Part shown: positions 497-9,931 of the stretch, piece after piece
How the letters are laid out: the number at the start of each line of letters is the position of its first letter
Numbering within the stretch: position 1 is the first letter of the stretch
Assembly (NCBI GenBank): GCA_016794245.1
Contig: JAEUKR010000053.1
Coordinates: forward strand, 1-34,354
DNA length: 34,354 nt
Reading direction: 5' to 3'
From: Caedimonas sp.
GTDB lineage: Bacteria > Pseudomonadota > Alphaproteobacteria > Caedimonadales > Caedimonadaceae
Made by a program: the position numbers and the translations under genes
The notes under the pieces: model-generated
Databases searched by the model: none
What the model was told of the DNA's origin: nothing
What the model saw: only the letters and a program-made list of their open reading frames with translations

Positions 497-1825
497 TTAA
501 AACACCGAAAGTAAAGCTCTCTTTGTGATTTCTCTGAGATGATCAATCTCGGGATTCTCGATGATCAAGGGAGGGAGCCAGTAAATCGTCTTTCCCAGAG
601 GCCTCAACAAAGCGCCCCCCTGAAAAGCGGCGTGAATCATTTTCTCCATTTTCTCGAACGTATACAGATGATCCTTGATATCAGCCGCCGCTATCATGCC
701 GATACCCCGAATGTTGGTCAGAACATCGGTCTCATGGGCAACGTCATATAATGATCGCAGCATATAAGACGCTTTTTCGTCTAAGAGCGACCAGTTAAAA
801 TCATTGGACAGGATTGTGAGTGTTTCAAGGGCGAGCCTTGCACCGAGGACATTGCCCGTATAGGTATGCGAATGATAAAAGGTTTCTTTCCCGGGATTCA
901 TTTGTGCAGGAGCGGCATCATAAAAACAATCGTAGATGTCGTTCGTTGTCAAGACGGCGCTGAAGGGAACCCAACCGGACGTAAGACCTTTGGAGAGGCA
1001 TATAAAATCAGGCGTTATCTTTGCATGTTCGCAGGCAAACATTTTTCCTGTTCGACCGAGTCCCGTCATGATCTCGTCCGCGATTAGATGAATGTTGTGC
1101 GCTTTTGTCCAGGCGCGCAGCTTTCCTAAAAAATCCTGGCTGTACATCCTCATATTTCCGGCGCCCTGGACAATAGGCTCCAAAATCAGGGCTGTAACGC
1201 TATCGCTGTTTTTTTCAAGAGTTTCTTCGATAGAATCCCAATAGGCCGAGCAGTCGTTCCAAAGCGGATCCGACGATCCGTTTAAATAGGGAATCCCCTG
1301 AAGGACAATACAGTCAAAAAGGATCGGGCTGTAAACGCTCTTGAAAGTTTCAAGGTGGCTGACGCTCAATGCGCCACAAGTCTCGCCATGATATCCTTGG
1401 GCAAGAGCCAGAAACTTTGTTCGCTTATGCTCTCCACGATTTATACGGCTGTGAAGGCTCATCTTTAGGGCAATTTCAATGGCGCTCGATCCATCGCCCG
1501 CATAGAAGGCCTTGCTCATGCCGGGGAAAAGTTTTACGAGTTTTTCTGATAAGGCAATGATCGTTTCATTCGTTGTCGTCGCACCAATAACATGCTCGAA
1601 TTGGCTCACTTGTTCGATGAGCGCCGCCTTGAGGCGTGGGTGATTGTGACCCAGTGACTTACACCACCAACTCGAAATTCCATCGATAACCTTCCGTCCA
1701 TCTATACCCTCTATAAAGCACCCGCTGGCTCGCCTGACCACAAAGGGAGGATACTTCTCAAGGCTTTTCATGTGAACGGCGGGATGCCAATGAAATTCAA
1801 GATCTTTTCTTTGCAATGGGTTCAT
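497..1825 (-). CDS. bioA: Adenosylmethionine-8-amino-7-oxononanoate aminotransferase
   Basis: BioA is the PLP enzyme that uses S-adenosylmethionine as amino donor to turn 7-keto-8-aminopelargonate (KAPA) into 7,8-diaminopelargonate, the third-last step of biotin synthesis. The class-III aminotransferase landmarks are all present: DGISSWWCKSLGHNHP near the N-terminus, YHGETCGALSVS in the middle, ADEIMTGLGRTG, and the PLP lysine in LSKGLTSG (about residue 279 from this start). The 442-residue length is normal for BioA. The frame stays open to another ATG at 1873. I prefer the ATG at 1825 because the 16 extra residues are not typical of the family and the extra stretch holds the putative BirA operator. 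Neither start has a good ribosome-binding site. The gene diverges from the bioBFHCD operon. Confidence 0.95.
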   Translation of the reverse strand: MNPLQRKDLEFHWHPAVHMKSLEKYPPFVVRRASGCFIEGIDGRKVIDGISSWWCKSLGHNHPRLKAALIEQVSQFEHVIGATTTNETIIALSEKLVKLFPGMSKAFYAGDGSSAIEIALKMSLHSRINRGEHKRTKFLALAQGYHGETCGALSVSHLETFKSVYSPILFDCIVLQGIPYLNGSSDPLWNDCSAYWDSIEETLEKNSDSVTALILEPIVQGAGNMRMYSQDFLGKLRAWTKAHNIHLIADEIMTGLGRTGKMFACEHAKITPDFICLSKGLTSGWVPFSAVLTTNDIYDCFYDAAPAQMNPGKETFYHSHTYTGNVLGARLALETLTILSNDFNWSLLDEKASYMLRSLYDVAHETDVLTNIRGIGMIAAADIKDHLYTFEKMEKMIHAAFQGGALLRPLGKTIYWLPPLIIENPEIDHLREITKRALLSVF

Positions 1826-1856
1826 CGTTAACCAAATTATTTTTTTAGGTTGACCA
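1825..1856. promoter_or_regulatory. Putative BirA operator (bioO-like) between bioA and bioB
   Basis: TCGTTAACC, 14 nt, then GGTTGACCA forms an interrupted inverted repeat. BirA operators in other bacteria follow roughly TTGTWAACC-N14-16-GGTTWACAA, and this site matches 8/9 in the left arm and 7/9 in the right arm with an allowed spacer. It lies in the divergent bioA-bioB control region, and a full repressor-type BirA is encoded at 6297-7286. The right arm contains TTGACC (1850-1855), the -35-like hexamer of the presumed bioB promoter, so bound BirA would block transcription. Confidence 0.7.
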
Positions 1857-1878
1857 TTTTTCGTTTTTCTCATATTAC
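1850..1878 (+). promoter_or_regulatory. Candidate bioB operon promoter
   Basis: A -35-like TTGACC at 1850-1855 is followed after 17 nt by TATTAC at 1873-1878, a moderate -10. Transcription from here would leave a leader of about 40 nt before the bioB ATG at 1928. The -35 overlaps the right arm of the BirA-type operator, the arrangement expected for biotin repression. No promoter for the bioA direction was convincing. Confidence 0.4.
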
Positions 1879-1927
1879 GGTTGAGTCATCAAGACCATTT
1901 GTCAGGAAATCATAGGGAAGTCAGATC

Positions 1928-2917
1928 ATGGTTAGGAATCATCGAATAACTTGGACGCATCAATCTGTTCAGGACCTCTTTGAAAAGCCATTCTTTGACC
2001 TTATAAGTCAGGCTCACGAAATTCATGGAAAACATTTCGATCCGTCCCGGATTGAATTATGCGCTCTCATCAATATAAAAACGGGGGGATGTCCCGAAGA
2101 TTGCGGGTTTTGTCATCAAAGCGCTCATTTTAAGACGGGCCTCGACAGAGAAGCTCTTATGGATGTAGAGAGTGTTGTTCAGAAAGCAAAAAAGCTGAAA
2201 CATCTCGGGGTGCAAAGATGCTGTCTGGGGGCGGCGTGGCGGACACCGCCCAAAAAAGATTTTCCAAGGGTGATAGAGATGATCCGGCATGTTAAGGCGC
2301 TTGGATTTGAAACATGCGTGACTTTGGGTTTCCTGGATCAACAACAGGCGAATCAGTTAAAAGACGCGGGTCTTGATTATTACAATCATAATATTGAAAC
2401 CAGCCCGGAATTTTATGCGAATGTTGTTTCCACTCATTCTTTTCAGGATCGGCTGACAACGGTTCAAAATGTCTCCAGGGCGAAAATAAACGTCTGCTGT
2501 GGGGGAATTGTTGGATTGGGCGAAAGTCGGGAAGATCGTATAAACTTTCTTTTGGCATTGTCTCAAATTAAAACGCCGCCCAAAAGCATTCCGATCAATC
2601 GGATGATTCGATTCGACAAGACACCTTTGAAGGATGTTGAGGCTCTGGATGTGTTTGAGTTCATCAGAACGATCGCCGTGACACGCATGATGTTCCCTCA
2701 ATCCATGGTCAGGCTATCGGGGGGACGAAAGGAATTGTCCGAATCGGATCAGGCTCTTTGCTTTTATGCCGGCGCCAACTCGATATTCGTGGGAGACAAG
2801 TTGCTCACGGCGCAAAATCAAAGTTTTGATTCGGATATGTTTCTCATGAAACGGTTGAATCTTGAACCCGTCAGACCAGCTTATGTTACAGGCGAAACAG
2901 ATGTTTTCTCAGCTTGA
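1928..2917 (+). CDS. bioB: Biotin synthase (radical SAM)
   Basis: BioB inserts sulfur into dethiobiotin in the last step of biotin synthesis. The radical-SAM [4Fe-4S] motif CPEDCGFC supplies Cys55, Cys59 and Cys62. The ligands of the second, sulfur-donating cluster are also recognisable: Cys99 in CLGAAWR, Cys130 in ETCVTLGFL, Cys190 in NVCCGGIVGLGE, and the arginine segment VRLSGGRKELSE near residue 265. At 329 residues it has family length. AGGGAAG, about 8 nt before the ATG, is a reasonable ribosome-binding site. It is the first gene of bioBFHCD, and its 3' end overlaps bioF by about 35 nt, suggesting coupled translation. Confidence 0.97.
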   Translation: MVRNHRITWTHQSVQDLFEKPFFDLISQAHEIHGKHFDPSRIELCALINIKTGGCPEDCGFCHQSAHFKTGLDREALMDVESVVQKAKKLKHLGVQRCCLGAAWRTPPKKDFPRVIEMIRHVKALGFETCVTLGFLDQQQANQLKDAGLDYYNHNIETSPEFYANVVSTHSFQDRLTTVQNVSRAKINVCCGGIVGLGESREDRINFLLALSQIKTPPKSIPINRMIRFDKTPLKDVEALDVFEFIRTIAVTRMMFPQSMVRLSGGRKELSESDQALCFYAGANSIFVGDKLLTAQNQSFDSDMFLMKRLNLEPVRPAYVTGETDVFSA

Positions 2918-4052
2918 AAGTCGATCACAGTTTCTTGAACGGAAAGCTCTTGTGCGCAAAAGAGATGCGGTAAGAAATGCTCCAAACGCGAAAGTTTATA
3001 TAAACAGCGAGGAGTATGTCAATTTCTGCTCAAATGATTATTTAGGCCTTGGGCAGCACCCAAAAGTAAAAGAAGTCATAAAGAATAAAATAGATGATTT
3101 GGGTTTTGGAAGCGGTTCATCTCCTCTCCTGAGCGGGTATTCTCCGGAATGCAAAGCGCTTGAAGAAAAATTCTGCGATGCTCTTGGGTATGAAAACGCT
3201 CTTGTTTTTCCTTCAGGGTATCAGGCGAATATAGGTGTTGTGTCCGCCCTGGTGTCCAGAGAATCGACTGTCGTGTGCGATGCGCTTTGTCATGCCTCGA
3301 TCCTTGATGGCATGATCTTGTCAAGATCAAAAATGAGAAGATATCGTCACAACGACGTCGATCATGCGCAGGCGCTTGTCGAGGCTCATAGTCCTTGTTT
3401 ACTCATCACGGAAAGCGTCTTTAGTATGGAAGGGACTCTCGCACCCCTTGTTGAATTGAGAAATTTGTCTCGCTGTTACGACATACCTTTTTTTGTGGAC
3501 GACGCGCATGGATTCGGCGTTCTTGGAGAAAGCGGATGGGGAGCCATTGATGGGTGGGAAACAAAAAACGTCAAACCGGACATTCTGGCGATATCTTTTG
3601 GAAAAGCATTGGGGGCCAGTGGGGCTATTGTTCTGTCAAGCGACAAAGTGATGGGGCACATCTTGCAGTACTGTCGAAGTTATCGATACACAACAGCGCT
3701 TCCGCCCCTCATCTGTTTAAGTGTGCTGGAAAGCCTTAACGTGATGGAAGAGGAAAAGTGGCGCCTGCAAAACCTGAGAAGAAATATCCGCCTTTTTAAT
3801 CAGTATGCAAAAGACGCTGCACTGCCCTTGATATCACAGGACATAACCCCCGTTCGCTCGATCCTGATCGGCGATAATCGACGCGTGTTGGAAATTTCGG
3901 GTCGTTTGAAAGAACGTGGCTTTTATGTGGCGGCTATTCGTCCTCCCGCTGTACCTGAGAACATGGCGCTGCTGCGAAGTTCTCTTCATTGTGACCATAC
4001 GGAATCGGACATTATTCGTCTCATCGCGTCTTTGAAAGAAACCCTGTCATGA
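2883..4052 (+). CDS. bioF: 8-amino-7-oxononanoate synthase
   Basis: BioF condenses pimeloyl-ACP (or pimeloyl-CoA) with L-alanine, losing CO2, to give KAPA. It belongs to the alpha-oxoamine synthase family of PLP enzymes. Visible landmarks are NFCSNDYLGLGQHP near residue 47, FPSGYQAN, the cofactor-binding DDAHGFGVLG, and the PLP lysine in SFGKALGASG (about residue 241 from this start). The start is uncertain. ATG 2883 (389 aa) and ATG 2901 (383 aa, with a weak AGGCG upstream) both give normal lengths, and both lie inside the end of bioB. The gene ends in a 4-nt ATGA overlap with the next gene. Confidence 0.95.
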   Translation: MLQAKQMFSQLESRSQFLERKALVRKRDAVRNAPNAKVYINSEEYVNFCSNDYLGLGQHPKVKEVIKNKIDDLGFGSGSSPLLSGYSPECKALEEKFCDALGYENALVFPSGYQANIGVVSALVSRESTVVCDALCHASILDGMILSRSKMRRYRHNDVDHAQALVEAHSPCLLITESVFSMEGTLAPLVELRNLSRCYDIPFFVDDAHGFGVLGESGWGAIDGWETKNVKPDILAISFGKALGASGAIVLSSDKVMGHILQYCRSYRYTTALPPLICLSVLESLNVMEEEKWRLQNLRRNIRLFNQYAKDAALPLISQDITPVRSILIGDNRRVLEISGRLKERGFYVAAIRPPAVPENMALLRSSLHCDHTESDIIRLIASLKETLS

Positions 4053-4852
4053 ACGCCGGATCTGACGTTATTGCTTTCATCCCGGGGTGGGGCTTTAAAT
4101 CCTCCATAGGAAAACAATATCTTCATCAAATATGCAACACATTTATCGATTTGCCGGATCCATGGGGTCTCTCGGATCTTCCAGACCTCTGGATTCCATC
4201 GGATACTTCAACTTCAAATCCGGATCTCAAAAGCTGTTCCATTGAAAACGTTTGCCGTCATATGGAAGCGGCGCTTTCAGGAAGGCGCAGAATGATTCTG
4301 CTAGGCTGGTCTTTGGGTGGGCTGATTGCCGTAAATTTATACCACAGAAAACCGGAAAATTATAAAGCGATGATTCTTGTGAATTTTACGCCCTGTTTTT
4401 CAAAGGGGGTAAGATGGCCCGGAATTTCATTGTCAAATCAGAGAATTTTCACGGATAATCTTGAACAGCCCTATCAGACGTTTGTGACATATTATCTTTC
4501 TCTTATGGCCTATCCTTATCCTTCTTCTCTGGTATCGTCCGCAATGTTAGCAACAGGAGCGGGTATAGAAACGCATCTCATCTCCGAGGCGCTTATCCAT
4601 CGATATAAAGCTTATGTCACAATCCTTTTTCAAACAGATGCGCGTCGTCAATATGTCGGAATCAAGATTCCTGCTCTGCTCATTCAGGGAAGCAAAGACC
4701 CGATTATCCCGTCTTCGATCCATTCGTATCTGAAAAAATTGAACCCCTCTGTTGATTATAGATGTATTGAAGGCGCTGGCCATGTCCCGTTTGTTTCTCA
4801 TTCAAAAGAGACGCATCGTCTGATCCAGAATTTTTTGGAAACAGTATTATGA
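4049..4852 (+). CDS. bioH: Pimeloyl-ACP methyl ester carboxylesterase, BioH-type alpha/beta hydrolase
   Basis: BioH cleaves the methyl ester from pimeloyl-ACP, releasing the chain from further elongation so that BioF can use it. This 267-residue protein has an alpha/beta-hydrolase triad: Ser88 in GWSLGG, Asp217 in QGSKDPIIP and His245 in GAGHVPF. The segment VNFTPCFSKGVRWPGI resembles the SSPCF...WPGI stretch of E. coli BioH. It overlaps bioF and bioC by 4 nt each (ATGA), so it is an integral member of the operon, unlike E. coli where bioH lies elsewhere. Other operon-borne esterases (BioG, BioK, BioJ) can fill this role. The sequence favours BioH over BioG, but biochemical equivalence is inferred. 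Confidence 0.85.
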   Translation: MNAGSDVIAFIPGWGFKSSIGKQYLHQICNTFIDLPDPWGLSDLPDLWIPSDTSTSNPDLKSCSIENVCRHMEAALSGRRRMILLGWSLGGLIAVNLYHRKPENYKAMILVNFTPCFSKGVRWPGISLSNQRIFTDNLEQPYQTFVTYYLSLMAYPYPSSLVSSAMLATGAGIETHLISEALIHRYKAYVTILFQTDARRQYVGIKIPALLIQGSKDPIIPSSIHSYLKKLNPSVDYRCIEGAGHVPFVSHSKETHRLIQNFLETVL

Positions 4853-5610
4853 AAGACTTTGAGTGTGTCTCTGATCAACATCACGAGGGTATCAAGAAAT
4901 GTTTTGAGAAAGCAGCTCCTCATTATGAGAATTACGCCGTCGTTCAGAAGCGCGCGGGCAAGCTATTGATAAAGGCTCTTCTTGAAGTCAAAGCGCCTCA
5001 TAAAAAAGTTCTGGATTTGGGATGCGGCGATGGGACGACAACCCTTGAATCGTGTCGCGCCTTTGATGAGATACGGACAATTCATGTGAATGATTTTTGC
5101 AGTATGTTTCTTGAAAAAGCCTTGAGTCGACTTCGTGACTTCAACTCGCAGGGCTTTCTATACAATTTTGATCACGAATGGACTTTAGAGTCTTTGTATG
5201 ACTTGATCTTTTCCAATATGGCTTTCCAATGGAGCCTGGATATTAATTCTCTTTTTGCCCAGAGTGCCAGTCACTTGAAACGTGATGGTTTTTTAGGATT
5301 CACTCTTCCGCTGAAAGGAACTTTTGCCAAGCTGGATCCTCACAGAGTCAACAGATTTCATACGTTTTGTTCTATTTCCGAATCGGCGGTCAAGGCGGGT
5401 TTCAGAAGGCTGTACGCTCGCCAATACACGATACCTCAGAAATTTAAAACATGTTTAGACGCTCTAAAATCAATCAAAGGATGTGGCGCTCATTATGTCT
5501 TTCATGAGAACAAGAGACAAACCATGATGAACCGTACCGAACTTTATCGTCCCGTTTCTCTCACGTATCAGATTGGCGTTTTCGTGTTCAGGAAGGAACC
5601 ATCCTTATGA
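4849..5610 (+). CDS. bioC: Malonyl-ACP O-methyltransferase
   Basis: BioC methylates the free carboxyl of malonyl-ACP with S-adenosylmethionine, disguising it so that fatty acid synthase can extend it to the pimeloyl stage. The N-terminal pattern CFEKAAPHYENYAVVQKRAG is typical of BioC. The SAM-binding motif I is LDLGCGDGTTT at about residues 55-65, and SNMAFQWSLD matches the conserved motif that follows strand 4. At 253 residues it has family size. ATG 4849 overlaps the bioH stop by 4 nt, and the stop overlaps the bioD ATG by 4 nt. Confidence 0.93.
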   Translation: MKDFECVSDQHHEGIKKCFEKAAPHYENYAVVQKRAGKLLIKALLEVKAPHKKVLDLGCGDGTTTLESCRAFDEIRTIHVNDFCSMFLEKALSRLRDFNSQGFLYNFDHEWTLESLYDLIFSNMAFQWSLDINSLFAQSASHLKRDGFLGFTLPLKGTFAKLDPHRVNRFHTFCSISESAVKAGFRRLYARQYTIPQKFKTCLDALKSIKGCGAHYVFHENKRQTMMNRTELYRPVSLTYQIGVFVFRKEPSL

Positions 5611-6254
5611 AACTGTTCGTTACGGGAACGGATACGGAAATTGGGAAAACCTATGTATCGAGGCTCCTTCTGCAAAAATTAAACGCTCAAAAGCTCCAAA
5701 CGATCGGATTAAAACCCGTTGCCTCAGGCTGTGAATGGATCGAGGGGCGATATATCAATAGGGATGCTTACATTTTACAACAAACAGCTTCTATTGCTTT
5801 ATCTTACGCCCAGGTAAACCCTTTCTGTTTCAGACCGTGGGTTTCCCCTCACATTGCGGCTCAAAGGACAGGGATCACATTAACGATAGAGAAAGTTTGC
5901 GCGCACCTGAAAAAGGTCTCTCGAATCCCTCATGACATCATGGTTATAGAAGGCGTGGGGGGTCTCATGGTTCCCTTCAATGATAAGGAATCTCAATTGG
6001 ATCTTGTCAAAGCGCTGGGCTGCCCTGTTCTTTTTGTCGTAGGGCTGAAATTAGGATGTTTGAATCATACATTGCTTAGTATCCATATGTTGAAAACGCA
6101 TCGAATTCCAATCGAAGGGTGGATCGTGAACCATATAGATCCTGCTGCTGAAGCTGTTATTGAAATGGTGCATACTCTTAAAGTCTTGTTAAAAGGCATT
6201 CCTTACCGTGGCTATATCCCTTTTGGTTCTGATCCATCGGTGGAAATCTGGTGA
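5607..6254 (+). CDS. bioD: Dethiobiotin synthetase
   Basis: BioD closes the ureido ring: 7,8-diaminopelargonate plus CO2 and ATP gives dethiobiotin. It has the P-loop GTDTEIGKT at residues 7-15, the substrate-binding KPVASG at 36-41, and EGVGGLMVPF at 115-124, the standard dethiobiotin synthetase signature. It is 215 aa, normal for the family. It is the last gene of the plus-strand operon and converges on birA with a gap of about 40 nt. That gap begins with a weak inverted repeat (GATGAA/TTCATC, 6253-6276) followed by TTTG, too weak to call a terminator with confidence. Confidence 0.95.
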   Translation: MKLFVTGTDTEIGKTYVSRLLLQKLNAQKLQTIGLKPVASGCEWIEGRYINRDAYILQQTASIALSYAQVNPFCFRPWVSPHIAAQRTGITLTIEKVCAHLKKVSRIPHDIMVIEGVGGLMVPFNDKESQLDLVKALGCPVLFVVGLKLGCLNHTLLSIHMLKTHRIPIEGWIVNHIDPAAEAVIEMVHTLKVLLKGIPYRGYIPFGSDPSVEIW

Positions 6255-6296
6255 TGAAAGAAGTCTATCCTTCATCTTTGCGGTCGATTTAATTCT

Positions 6297-7286
6297 TCAG
6301 GTTTTCATGACGGAGGTATCTCCGGATGAAAAGCTTTGAATGACGCCAGAAGGCAGTTCTATGAGTAGATGACCGAGTTCGTTGATTCCTCTGGCCATAC
6401 CGGAAATGTGTCCCCGGGATGTTTTCAGGAGAATGGTTTTATTGTGTAACATATCATACTTTTGCCAGTCATTTCTGAAGGCATTCATGCCATTTTGACT
6501 GAAGCACTCAAGACCTTCGAGGGTTGCGTCTATGACTCTGGCTGCTACGATGTTTCGATCTACCGTATGGGCTAAGTGATGTTCCAAAGAAGTCCATGGT
6601 TGATCGATGTCTTTTATAGAAGCGTCTTTCATATTGATATTAAGCCCGATTCCTATAATGGTTCTGCAATTTCCATGAGCTTCTGCTGTGATCTCGATGA
6701 GGATTCCCCCCATCTTTTCAGAGCATAGGTAAATATCATTTGGCCATTTAAGGGAAAGAGACAACTTGGGGTTGGGAAATGGGTTAAATGATTCAAGGCA
6801 TTTCGCCAGAATGACGCCCATGACCAGGCTTAGACCTGACAATTCGCTGATATCTTTGGAAAATGTATAGCTAAGGCTTAGATAAAGGTTTCTGCCAAAA
6901 GGCGATATCCAGGATCGTTCCATACGTCCTCTGCCATGGGATTGGTGTTCTGCCAGACAGAAATGAGGACAATTTGCATTATTTTCTTTATTTTTCAGGT
7001 AATCGTTTGTTGAGTCAAGGCTTTCAAAGACATCCAGGGTATAGTTTTTATTTTGCGTCTTATGACAGATCTTTTGTTTATCCAAAAGAGATAAGTATTC
7101 ATGCAAAATATATCCTTTAGGGTGAGATTGGATGGGCGCTCCAAAACTCTTTAAACGCTGAATGATTTTCCAGACGGCTGTTCGCGAAAGTCCTAATTCT
7201 CTTGCAATCTCTGTGCCGGGGTGAGAGTGACAATCGTTTAGAATATGAACCAACTTTAGAACGGATGAAGACAATTGATGCGTCAC
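6297..7286 (-). CDS. birA: Bifunctional biotin-protein ligase / biotin operon repressor
   Basis: BirA makes biotinyl-AMP and transfers biotin to acceptor proteins such as the acetyl-CoA carboxylase carrier subunit. With an N-terminal winged helix it also represses bio genes. The helix-turn-helix is at about residues 24-48 (GTEIARELGLSRTAVWKIIQ). The catalytic part shows DSTND (91-95), HGRGRMERSW (117-126), SLKWPNDIYL and KMGGILIE, followed by the C-terminal cap. The usual GRGRRGR loop reads GRGRMER here, so the last glycine of the biotinyl-AMP loop is replaced. This is odd but may be tolerated. The start codon is GTG, since a stop lies three codons upstream. Its presence as a two-domain protein fits the operator at 1825-1856. 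Confidence 0.95.
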   Translation of the reverse strand: MTHQLSSSVLKLVHILNDCHSHPGTEIARELGLSRTAVWKIIQRLKSFGAPIQSHPKGYILHEYLSLLDKQKICHKTQNKNYTLDVFESLDSTNDYLKNKENNANCPHFCLAEHQSHGRGRMERSWISPFGRNLYLSLSYTFSKDISELSGLSLVMGVILAKCLESFNPFPNPKLSLSLKWPNDIYLCSEKMGGILIEITAEAHGNCRTIIGIGLNINMKDASIKDIDQPWTSLEHHLAHTVDRNIVAARVIDATLEGLECFSQNGMNAFRNDWQKYDMLHNKTILLKTSRGHISGMARGINELGHLLIELPSGVIQSFSSGDTSVMKT

Positions 7287-7543: not shown

Positions 7544-8689
7544 TTAATCCTTAATCTCCGTGTTTTCCTGTTTAAAAATCAAAGGTGTGTCACTGTCTCT
7601 GTAACTGTTAAATGTCGGAAGCATGGATTCAAATTTCTTTGTTTTGGAGAAAGCTATCGCGAGAATGTCTCGAAAGTACCTCCAATATTGTGTTGGTACT
7701 TTTTTTTCCATAAGTCGTGTTTTCGTCCAAATCCCTTGCATACATTGTGTTGTCGCTGCATCTATAGAACTCTCTCGCAGCAGAGGAAGGAATTTCTCTT
7801 TAAGGAGTGAGGAACGATCCGCCTTTGTATAGGCGGAAATACCGCGCCAAAAACTGTCGCACCATCCTTTATGAATGCCCATCGGAGCTTTAAATATTTC
7901 AGGGAACAGGGTGACTATGTTGTCGATGGCATCGAGATTTTCTTTAATCGCCAGTTCTTTCTTTTTCAGGTTTTCAGCGAGAAGCTCTGCGTTTTTGGAA
8001 TCCATATGTTCTTTATTTTTGTTAAGATGGTTGTAAGCGTGAGAATTTTCCAAAGCGTTTTCATACAGATTTTGAAGGCCTTTTACAGTGGAGTCGACAA
8101 AAGACAGGGTCATAACCCAGACATATGTTTCGTCCTTGATATTGTTCTTCAAATTGATAATGCGGGGGTCAATTTCCGAAATGCCTGTACGCTCCAGTGA
8201 TTTGATGCTTGCAAACTCTGAAGACACGTAACTTGCATAGAGAGCAATGATATTCAATTCTTCTCTCGATCTTGAAAACTTGCTCTCTTTTTCAACAGAG
8301 GTGGGGTTTTGATCGCTCACGGATTCTGAAGGCTCATGCGGAAGAGTGATCTGAGCAGCCGATGACGGAGAAACGATACTGGCCTCTAGATAGGCTTTCT
8401 GATTTTCATCCCGGCAACGGTTATAAAGTTCTTTGAAATGCGCATTGGTTTGAAAAATAATATTTTGAGCCGCCTGAAATCCTTGTTGATATCGAGGAGA
8501 GTTGATCTTTTCGTCCGCTTCTGTCACGCAATGATCTCTGGTCACTTGGACAAGAGTCTGAGACCTCAAAAGGCCATACTGTTCGAGCGCTCCTTCCACA
8601 TCTGGAGAAAGGCCGACTCTGTCGCTTGCCTGCGACGAAACACTTATGGACAGCAAAGAAGCCGCCATGATCACTCTAAACATTTTCAT
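7544..8689 (-). CDS. Exported protein of unknown function
   Basis: I do not recognise this 381-residue protein. The chosen ATG at 8689 has an excellent AAGGAG ribosome-binding site 8-9 nt upstream and gives a clean signal peptide (MKMFRVIMAASLLSISVSSQAS, cleavage after about residue 22). Longer in-frame starts up to 8806 would bury that signal. The mature protein is hydrophilic and largely helical, with lysine- and glutamate-rich stretches around residues 200-260 suggesting coiled coil. It has four cysteines in the mature region and no membrane segment. It lies 141 bp downstream of the start region of another exported protein on the same strand (8831-9931), so the two may be co-expressed. A periplasmic or secreted host-interaction role is possible but unproven. 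Confidence 0.75.
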   Translation of the reverse strand: MKMFRVIMAASLLSISVSSQASDRVGLSPDVEGALEQYGLLRSQTLVQVTRDHCVTEADEKINSPRYQQGFQAAQNIIFQTNAHFKELYNRCRDENQKAYLEASIVSPSSAAQITLPHEPSESVSDQNPTSVEKESKFSRSREELNIIALYASYVSSEFASIKSLERTGISEIDPRIINLKNNIKDETYVWVMTLSFVDSTVKGLQNLYENALENSHAYNHLNKNKEHMDSKNAELLAENLKKKELAIKENLDAIDNIVTLFPEIFKAPMGIHKGWCDSFWRGISAYTKADRSSLLKEKFLPLLRESSIDAATTQCMQGIWTKTRLMEKKVPTQYWRYFRDILAIAFSKTKKFESMLPTFNSYRDSDTPLIFKQENTEIKD

Positions 8690-8830
8690 CAATCCATCTC
8701 CTTTTATAATCAATCTTATAAGTGTTCTAAGGATGGATTGATAACCATCCTCCCTGTATATATAAAAATAAAGATTTTTCTTCAGTGTGTAAATACGGCT
8801 TCGCATAGTTCATTCGTTATGCTCTCTGAC

Positions 8831-9931
8831 TCAGTTTGCCAAACCGATCGAGATTTTCGAAAAAATTCTATTAAAATCAAGCTTTTCAAAATCAAGAGCG
8901 ATCTTTCTGATATTTTCATATTCTCTGGCATTTGCCAGTTTGGTTTCTATTTTATCAAGCAACGGTTGTTGTTTGTCTTCCAAAAGATCAAGACAGGCGA
9001 GGGCTTTTTGGAGAGCTTCTTGTCCTCTGTGGATATTATTAAGGGCGGCTTGATGATCATGAAAACGATGTGCCGCCCACATAAAAAGTTGTCCAGCCGA
9101 AATATATAAATCGGCCCATTCACCTGCCTCGGCTGAGGCGGCAGCGTTCAGGTAATTGTATCCTGCCAGAACAAAACTATAGGCAACAAGTTTGTTCTTC
9201 TCTTCAGAGGTAAGTCCTGAAATGTTGGTTGCGCAGATCCTGAGACCAAGATCAGTTAATTTTCGAGCCTGTTCTGCTTTTGAATCTGATCGATCAAAGT
9301 TAATCTTCATGATCAGGAATGCTGGTACAACGGATGTGATTTGCGAAGGCAGAATATGTTGCGCATAATCACTCAGCCCTGTACCTATCTCTGTCTTTAA
9401 AATGAATTCTTTTCTCTTTGGTGCGGCGTTCTGTTGAATCTCCCATTTTATTTTTTGCGCCTTCTTGTGCCATTCTGCAATTGACAGAAGGTCTTGATCG
9501 TTCCATTTTTTATAATCAATCGATCCGACAGGGGAAATTTTTTTAATGAAATTAAAGAGATAGGGAGAATATTTTTGGTATGATAATTCTTCGGCCGTTC
9601 TTCCAGTTTGAATTCTGCCGATGAAAAACCCCTTTTGGTTCTCTTTTTGATCTGCTATTTCCTTCTCTTGATCTTCTCTTTCCCTTTCATAAAGAGTCTG
9701 CCAATACTCCTCACTTTCCTGAACCTTCAAGAGAGCATAATTCAAATTCAAAATAGCCTGTTTTTCTTGAGGACTTAAATCATCCCGTAAAAACAAGATA
9801 CTTTCCGAACGAACGGGCAGGATATTTTTCGTCTCGATATCCACCGTGTCTTCGTTCTTTATCTCGGACGATTGTGCAATGTTTAGGGGTAACGAGAGCA
9901 TAAAAAATAAAGAGAACAGATCTTTTCTCAT
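8831..9931 (-). CDS. Exported helical protein of unknown function
   Basis: This 366-residue protein matches no family I know. It starts with a typical signal peptide (MRKDLFSLFFMLSLPLNIAQSS, cleavage about residue 21-22) and has an AGGAG ribosome-binding site 9 nt before the ATG. The rest is hydrophilic and predicted mostly helical. A strongly charged stretch rich in Glu, Lys and Gln near residues 80-105 could form a coiled coil, and an alanine-rich helical region lies around 255-310. It precedes the exported protein at 7544-8689 on the same strand. Similar size, export and helical character suggest a related role, but no clear sequence similarity between the two is visible by eye. Confidence 0.75.
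   Translation of the reverse strand: MRKDLFSLFFMLSLPLNIAQSSEIKNEDTVDIETKNILPVRSESILFLRDDLSPQEKQAILNLNYALLKVQESEEYWQTLYEREREDQEKEIADQKENQKGFFIGRIQTGRTAEELSYQKYSPYLFNFIKKISPVGSIDYKKWNDQDLLSIAEWHKKAQKIKWEIQQNAAPKRKEFILKTEIGTGLSDYAQHILPSQITSVVPAFLIMKINFDRSDSKAEQARKLTDLGLRICATNISGLTSEEKNKLVAYSFVLAGYNYLNAAASAEAGEWADLYISAGQLFMWAAHRFHDHQAALNNIHRGQEALQKALACLDLLEDKQQPLLDKIETKLANAREYENIRKIALDFEKLDFNRIFSKISIGLAN

Follow-up and report, generated by a model that had tools for sequence, protein, structure and literature searches.

Organization of the biotin locus

We analyzed a 34,354-nucleotide stretch of DNA from Caedimonas sp., referred to here as the window (G000:C27), which belongs to a draft genome of 1.33 Mb in 56 contigs. 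Genes for biotin synthesis and biotin ligation span positions 497-7286: bioA on the minus strand, bioB, bioF, bioH, bioC and bioD on the plus strand, and birA again on the minus strand. The features are as follows.

497-1825, minus strand: bioA, DAPA aminotransferase, conventional start ATG at 1825 (TIGR00508, 445.5 bits, cut-off 405)
1825-1856, no strand: predicted BirA operator between divergent bioA and bioB; left arm TCGTTAACC at 1825-1833, AT-rich spacer at 1834-1847, right arm GGTTGACCA at 1848-1856
1850-1878, plus strand: predicted bioB promoter; -35 TTGACC at 1850-1855 (in the right arm), 17 bp, -10 TATTAC at 1873-1878
1871-1873, minus strand: possible upstream bioA start (ATG), overlapping the bioB -10; it would place the operator inside bioA
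1928-2917, plus strand: bioB, biotin synthase (TIGR00433, 386.4 bits, cut-off 225)
2862-4052, plus strand: bioF (TIGR00858, 368.5 bits, below the cut-off of 426; gene order)
4049-4852, plus strand: bioH-like esterase (TIGR01738, E = 3e-29, below cut-off; gene order)
4849-5610, plus strand: bioC (TIGR02072, E = 5e-39, below cut-off; gene order)
5607-6254, plus strand: bioD (TIGR00347, 150.5 bits, cut-off 83.3)
6297-7286, minus strand: birA, bifunctional biotin ligase/repressor, convergent with bioD (PF08279, PF03099, PF02237)

The listed TTG start of bioF overlaps bioB, and the true start probably lies further in. Upstream of birA, on the same strand, two adjoining genes (7544-8806 and 8831-9931, minus strand) code for proteins with signal-like N-termini; neither matched an entry in Pfam or NCBIfam. 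The window has no Rfam matches, that is, no riboswitch or other RNA-based control was found in it.

An earlier note on this DNA had placed a BirA with a DNA-binding domain at the far end of the locus, and the domain searches bear this out. The product of birA has an N-terminal helix-turn-helix (HTH) at residues 10-60 (HTH_11, E = 6e-12) followed by a catalytic domain and a C-terminal domain, which makes it a Group II BirA. Its best PDB matches are enterobacterial BirA structures (8f8u and 1bia). In its recognition-helix region, LSRTAVWKIIQRLK lines up with MSRAAINKHIQTLR of E. coli BirA; the E. coli sequence was entered by hand for this comparison and is consistent with the 1bia alignment. A search for biotin protein ligases (BPL) returned a single match in the window genome. 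Since no second biotin ligase was seen, this BirA must also biotinylate the carboxylases.

The operator between bioA and bioB

The site at 1825-1856 reads TCGTTAACC-AAATTATTTTTTTA-GGTTGACCA, with the sequence and coordinates that the earlier note had given for a BirA-type operator. Fifteen of its 18 arm positions agree with TTGTTAACC-N14-GGTTAACAA. It is the sole match to this pattern in the window at three or fewer mismatches, and 0.01 such matches are expected in shuffled sequences. The outer arm positions are degenerate (TCG..., ...CCA). BirA operators have inverted arms like TTGTAAACC and GGTTTACAA placed 14-16 bp apart, and the site has this form. Its 14-bp spacer had been described as standard; this length is normal, but it is one of three normal lengths rather than the only one, as spacers of 14, 15 and 16 bp occur in 8, 13 and 5, respectively, of 26 gammaproteobacterial sites.

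We built a weight matrix from these 26 bioB/bioA sites, leaving alphaproteobacterial sites out, and ran the kind of scan that the earlier note had proposed. The operator scored 20.1 bits, the highest value in the window, against a leave-one-out range of 17.0-28.7 bits for the gammaproteobacterial sites. With its own reverse reading set aside, it stands 9 bits ahead of the runner-up independent site (10.7 bits), and no other site in the window is a strong BirA-type match. Of 300 random sequences matched to the window in length (34 kb) and composition, 1 reached 20.1 bits anywhere. By sequence alone, the operator would thus be about a 1-in-300 event per 34 kb, and a chance origin is less likely still given that it lies between bioA and bioB. 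The exact core GTNAACC-N14-GGTTNAC occurs once in the genome, at this operator. Matches with one or two mismatches elsewhere in the genome do not have the exact core, and their frequency is close to that of matches to reversed-pattern controls; we rejected them as additional regulon members. Judged by its form and setting, 1825-1856 is a real and, by itself, ordinary BirA operator, and it is very probably functional and repressed by BirA-biotinyl-AMP.

Conservation in loci of the same gene order

Scanning genome contigs for BioB identified three further loci (L049, L050 and L051) in metagenome-assembled genomes (MAGs) whose records are titled Alphaproteobacteria or Proteobacteria bacterium. 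Their BioB proteins show 67-69% identity, and the gene order is identical, with bioA divergent from bioBFHCD and then a convergent birA. Each has GTTAACC-N14-GGTTGAC between bioA and bioB. Across the four loci, the invariant columns amount to 14 of 14 in the core arms, 3 of 14 in the spacer and 32 of 82 among the other gap-free positions (Fisher p = 4e-6). With BioB this divergent and the spacer randomized, selection is needed to explain the intact arms. The earlier note had named a lack of arm conservation in relatives of the same gene order as evidence against an operator; the arms proved invariant.

The bioB promoter and the start of bioA

A bioB -35 had been presumed in the right arm, and it is found there at 17 bp from a -10. 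The site therefore stands upstream of biotin genes and overlaps their promoter, as sites of BirA regulons do. The layout TTGAC-N17-TAnnnT recurs at most of the homologous sites; L049 is an exception, with 14 bp instead of 17 between the two elements. Because the right arm holds the TTGACC element, BirA bound here would sit over the bioB -35.

The conventional bioA start (ATG 1825-1823) overlaps the operator, and in many gammaproteobacterial loci the bioA ATG is likewise no more than about 15 bp from the operator end. Each of the four alphaproteobacterial loci has an in-frame bioA ATG across the operator, at the position equivalent to 1873. Across the operator, the bioA frame has no stop in any of the four, and the other two frames are both stopped in each. 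In L049 and L050, no ATG, GTG or TTG occurs from the 1825 position up to the conserved HWHP motif, so the operator there is most likely part of the bioA coding sequence. For the window and L051, ATG 1873 and ATG 1825 are both possible starts, and the window operator may lie inside bioA. We looked by eye for a bioA promoter among -35/-10 pairs on the minus strand upstream of 1873 and saw none that was convincing.

The bioB leader also contains a TCAAGACC box at about 1889-1896. It is conserved in the four loci, with TCAAG invariant, and is accounted for neither by the operator nor by the bioB ribosome-binding site.

Origin of the locus

The window genome belongs to the Alphaproteobacteria, and the order of L049-L051 falls in the same class. 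Genomes with enterobacterial BirA share only the phylum with the window genome. The shared class follows from genomes of the L049-L051 order that turn up again, at identical coordinates, in our set for the class of the window genome (G305 = G249, G300 = G150). No 16S gene was found in the window genome or the related assemblies.

BioB is rare around the window genome. It was not found in other genomes of the same order (10 genomes, 5 genera), where the remaining matches of the search are short and weak (about 26-33% identity) and are interpreted as lipoyl synthase and enzymes like it. Of 17 genomes in the order of L049-L051, 3 have BioB. In the BioA tree, the window groups with the three MAGs in a single clade (SH-aLRT 100), which lies inside a clade with 26 gammaproteobacterial BioA proteins (support 100) and apart from alphaproteobacterial BioA. 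The BirA tree, with moderate support, places the alphaproteobacterial HTH-BirA proteins among gammaproteobacterial BirA and apart from alphaproteobacterial Group I BPL. Almost all BirA matches in 385 alphaproteobacterial genomes are without an HTH; those at E <= 1e-20 that include it number three (G000, G249 and G022). The match in G022 (L211:7990-9003) is an HTH-BirA in another alphaproteobacterial family, and there is no BirA site within 18 kb around that birA.

Sampled upstream regions of ordinary alphaproteobacterial bioB genes have no such site, their best matches reaching 9-13 of 18 positions versus 15-16 at the loci described here, and gammaproteobacterial bioB promoters have the same GGTTGACA right arm. 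In gammaproteobacterial genomes such as G994, G698 and G705, birA has the same strand as bioA and lies 4-5 kb from it in the direction of bioB, a spacing like that of the window. Several of the gammaproteobacterial loci nearest by BioA (L093-L098 and L101) have no site scoring at least 14 upstream of bioA, which means that not all of the donor-like group has this control.

From these comparisons, bioA, bioBFHCD, birA and the operator look as if they were imported together from a gammaproteobacterium-like source. The earlier note had taken the biotin genes to have kept a repression that many host-restricted bacteria have lost, and this part of it does not stand. The gammaproteobacterial placement of BioA and BirA, together with order-mates that lack bioB, indicates that control was acquired with the genes and not retained from an alphaproteobacterial ancestor. 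The class itself has been reported to be without BirA regulons: Leyn et al. (2016), in a large survey of proteobacterial regulons, describe alphaproteobacterial BirA as having lost the DNA-binding domain, with BirA regulons apparently absent (PMC5343134).

BirA and its operator in relatives without bioB

HTH-BirA also occurs in genomes that lack BioB, namely G002 and G003 of the same family and G303, G305-G309 and G311 of the order of L049-L051. These proteins show 49-55% identity and mostly occur beside an ordinary Group I ligase. In most of these relatives a single gene preceded by a BirA site lies convergent to the HTH-birA gene; for G307 and G311, both the site and its gene are on another or a broken contig. 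Among 28 related genomes, the exact N14 site is present in 12 of the 13 with HTH-BirA and in 1 of the 15 without (Fisher p = 8e-6 under the N14 rule, an indicative value since the genomes are related and non-independent). The thirteenth HTH-BirA genome, G002, has an N15 version of the site. An exact match in G006, which has a GC-rich spacer and no HTH-BirA, was taken as chance.

The genes behind these operators in G002, G003 (two copies), G306, G308 and G309 code for proteins with a Biotin_lipoyl domain (PF00364, E 6e-11 to 1e-14). The target proteins of G307 and G311 have the same E-x-M-K-M motif, which is invariant in an alignment of seven target proteins. (The loci L153, L155, L156, L157, L158, L161, L212 and L213 correspond to G306, G309, G002, G003, G003, G308, G307 and G311.) Judged by eye, each of the acceptor-type targets has a signal-like hydrophobic start, and most of the C-termini have a transmembrane-like segment and a basic tail.

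Two targets differ. In G303 (L162:3978-5461), the operator TGGTAAACC-N14-GGTTGACAA precedes a protein that contains ESMKME and has no Pfam match; it may be a degenerate acceptor. In G305 (L154:4474-5454), the gene behind the operator codes for an F-box-like protein (PF12937, E = 5e-10) with a signal-like N-terminus, which puts a eukaryote-type domain behind a biotin repressor site.

We lean toward the view that HTH-BirA and its operator form a mobile control cassette in host-associated-looking Alphaproteobacteria. On this view it runs biotin synthesis in the window, and in related genomes without bioB it controls an exported, membrane-anchored biotin acceptor (signal peptide, biotin-attachment domain, long linker and C-terminal transmembrane segment) whose expected ligase is the repressor itself. 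The presence of ligase, operator and biotin-acceptor target in one unit suggests feedback between acceptor supply and biotin status. In open-licence papers, we found no report of a BirA-controlled exported biotin acceptor or of BirA regulons in this group.

Alternative explanations and proposed mechanism

The arms could be conserved solely through their overlap with the bioB -35 and with N-terminal codons of bioA (GQP...LT), with no binding of BirA. GGTTGAC does include TTGAC, and both arms lie within the open bioA frame, but the invariant left arm GTTAACC is outside any identified promoter element and the codons next to the arms vary freely. Moreover, the same arms, N14 apart (N15 in G002), stand upstream of the ATG of unrelated genes, for exported biotin acceptors and an F-box protein, in genomes with HTH-BirA, and we regard overlap as an improbable explanation. 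The foreignness of the locus to its order and trees that favor import would also agree with an operator that is a passive relic of a recently imported operon, out of use in its new host. We consider this very unlikely, given arms that are intact despite the divergence of BioB and the randomized spacer, and a BirA that is intact, HTH included, and is the sole ligase found in the genome. Control by another regulator, such as BioR, is extremely unlikely. BioR is a known biotin regulator of some Alphaproteobacteria (PMC4554459), but it was described from Rhizobiales and Rhodobacterales (PMC5343134), and no TTATnnATAA box, the mark of its regulon, is present in 1781-1960.

We thus favor, with high confidence, a joint reading in which the site is a genuine BirA operator, bioBFHCD and bioA are under ligand-dependent repression, and the whole unit is a gammaproteobacterial import. 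In E. coli, BirA bound to biotinyl-AMP dimerizes on two half sites. In the window genome, when biotin is plentiful, BirA with biotinyl-5'-AMP would likewise dimerize on both arms and cover the bioB -35, blocking bioBFHCD. The leftward bioA transcript, which would have to start on the bioB side and cross the operator, would also be blocked. Under biotin shortage, or with abundant unbiotinylated acceptor, BirA would be consumed as a ligase and the operon released. The structural genes, birA and the operator would have entered the alphaproteobacterial lineage as one unit. In this explanation, BirA binding and its dependence on the ligand are inferred, as are repression and the promoter of bioA.

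Comparison with known systems

The locus resembles the E. coli-type BirA-bioO system of Gammaproteobacteria in its divergent bioA and bioB, in its TTGTAAACC/GGTTgACAg arms on the bioB -35, in its HTH-type BirA and in an operator that adjoins or overlaps the bioA start (ATG at -1 from the operator end here, +7 in enterobacterial loci). It differs in that its spacer is 14 bp rather than the enterobacterial 16, birA is linked to and convergent with bioD, the bioA frame may cross the operator and the host is an alphaproteobacterium.

BOOM, the horizontally acquired biotin operon of intracellular bacteria such as Megaera and Wolbachia, is a single co-directional six-gene operon that includes bioA. 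The window locus is not of this kind, its bioA being divergent and its birA linked. As is proposed here, a full biotin pathway was gained horizontally by an alphaproteobacterium in the case of Megaera (PMC13134042); the Megaera paper makes no mention of birA or an operator (PMC13134042), whereas the import in the window is divergent and has its own repressor and operator. The BioR regulons of Alphaproteobacteria also control biotin synthesis in this class (PMC4554459), but they use a GntR repressor and a short palindrome, and window positions 1781-1960 have no such box. The Coxiella burnetii locus CBU_1008-1002 has the order bioA-bioBFHCD-birA with birA linked (PMC5423948); compared by gene order alone, it matches the window and belongs to a different class.

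Biological implications

The window locus and its relatives are clear exceptions to the statement in PMC5343134 on alphaproteobacterial BirA. What is noteworthy about this operator is its host class, its apparent arrival as a complete unit and, in relatives, its predicted reuse ahead of a gene for a biotin acceptor. A transcription factor would have crossed between classes along with its operator and the genes that it controls, and the arms survived the drift around them. In the relatives without biotin synthesis genes, the same switch has a new target, and regulon rewiring can be tested there directly. These relatives also point to a predicted exported protein that carries biotin. If this is true, their BirA regulon would consist of a biotin acceptor in place of the genes for biotin synthesis.
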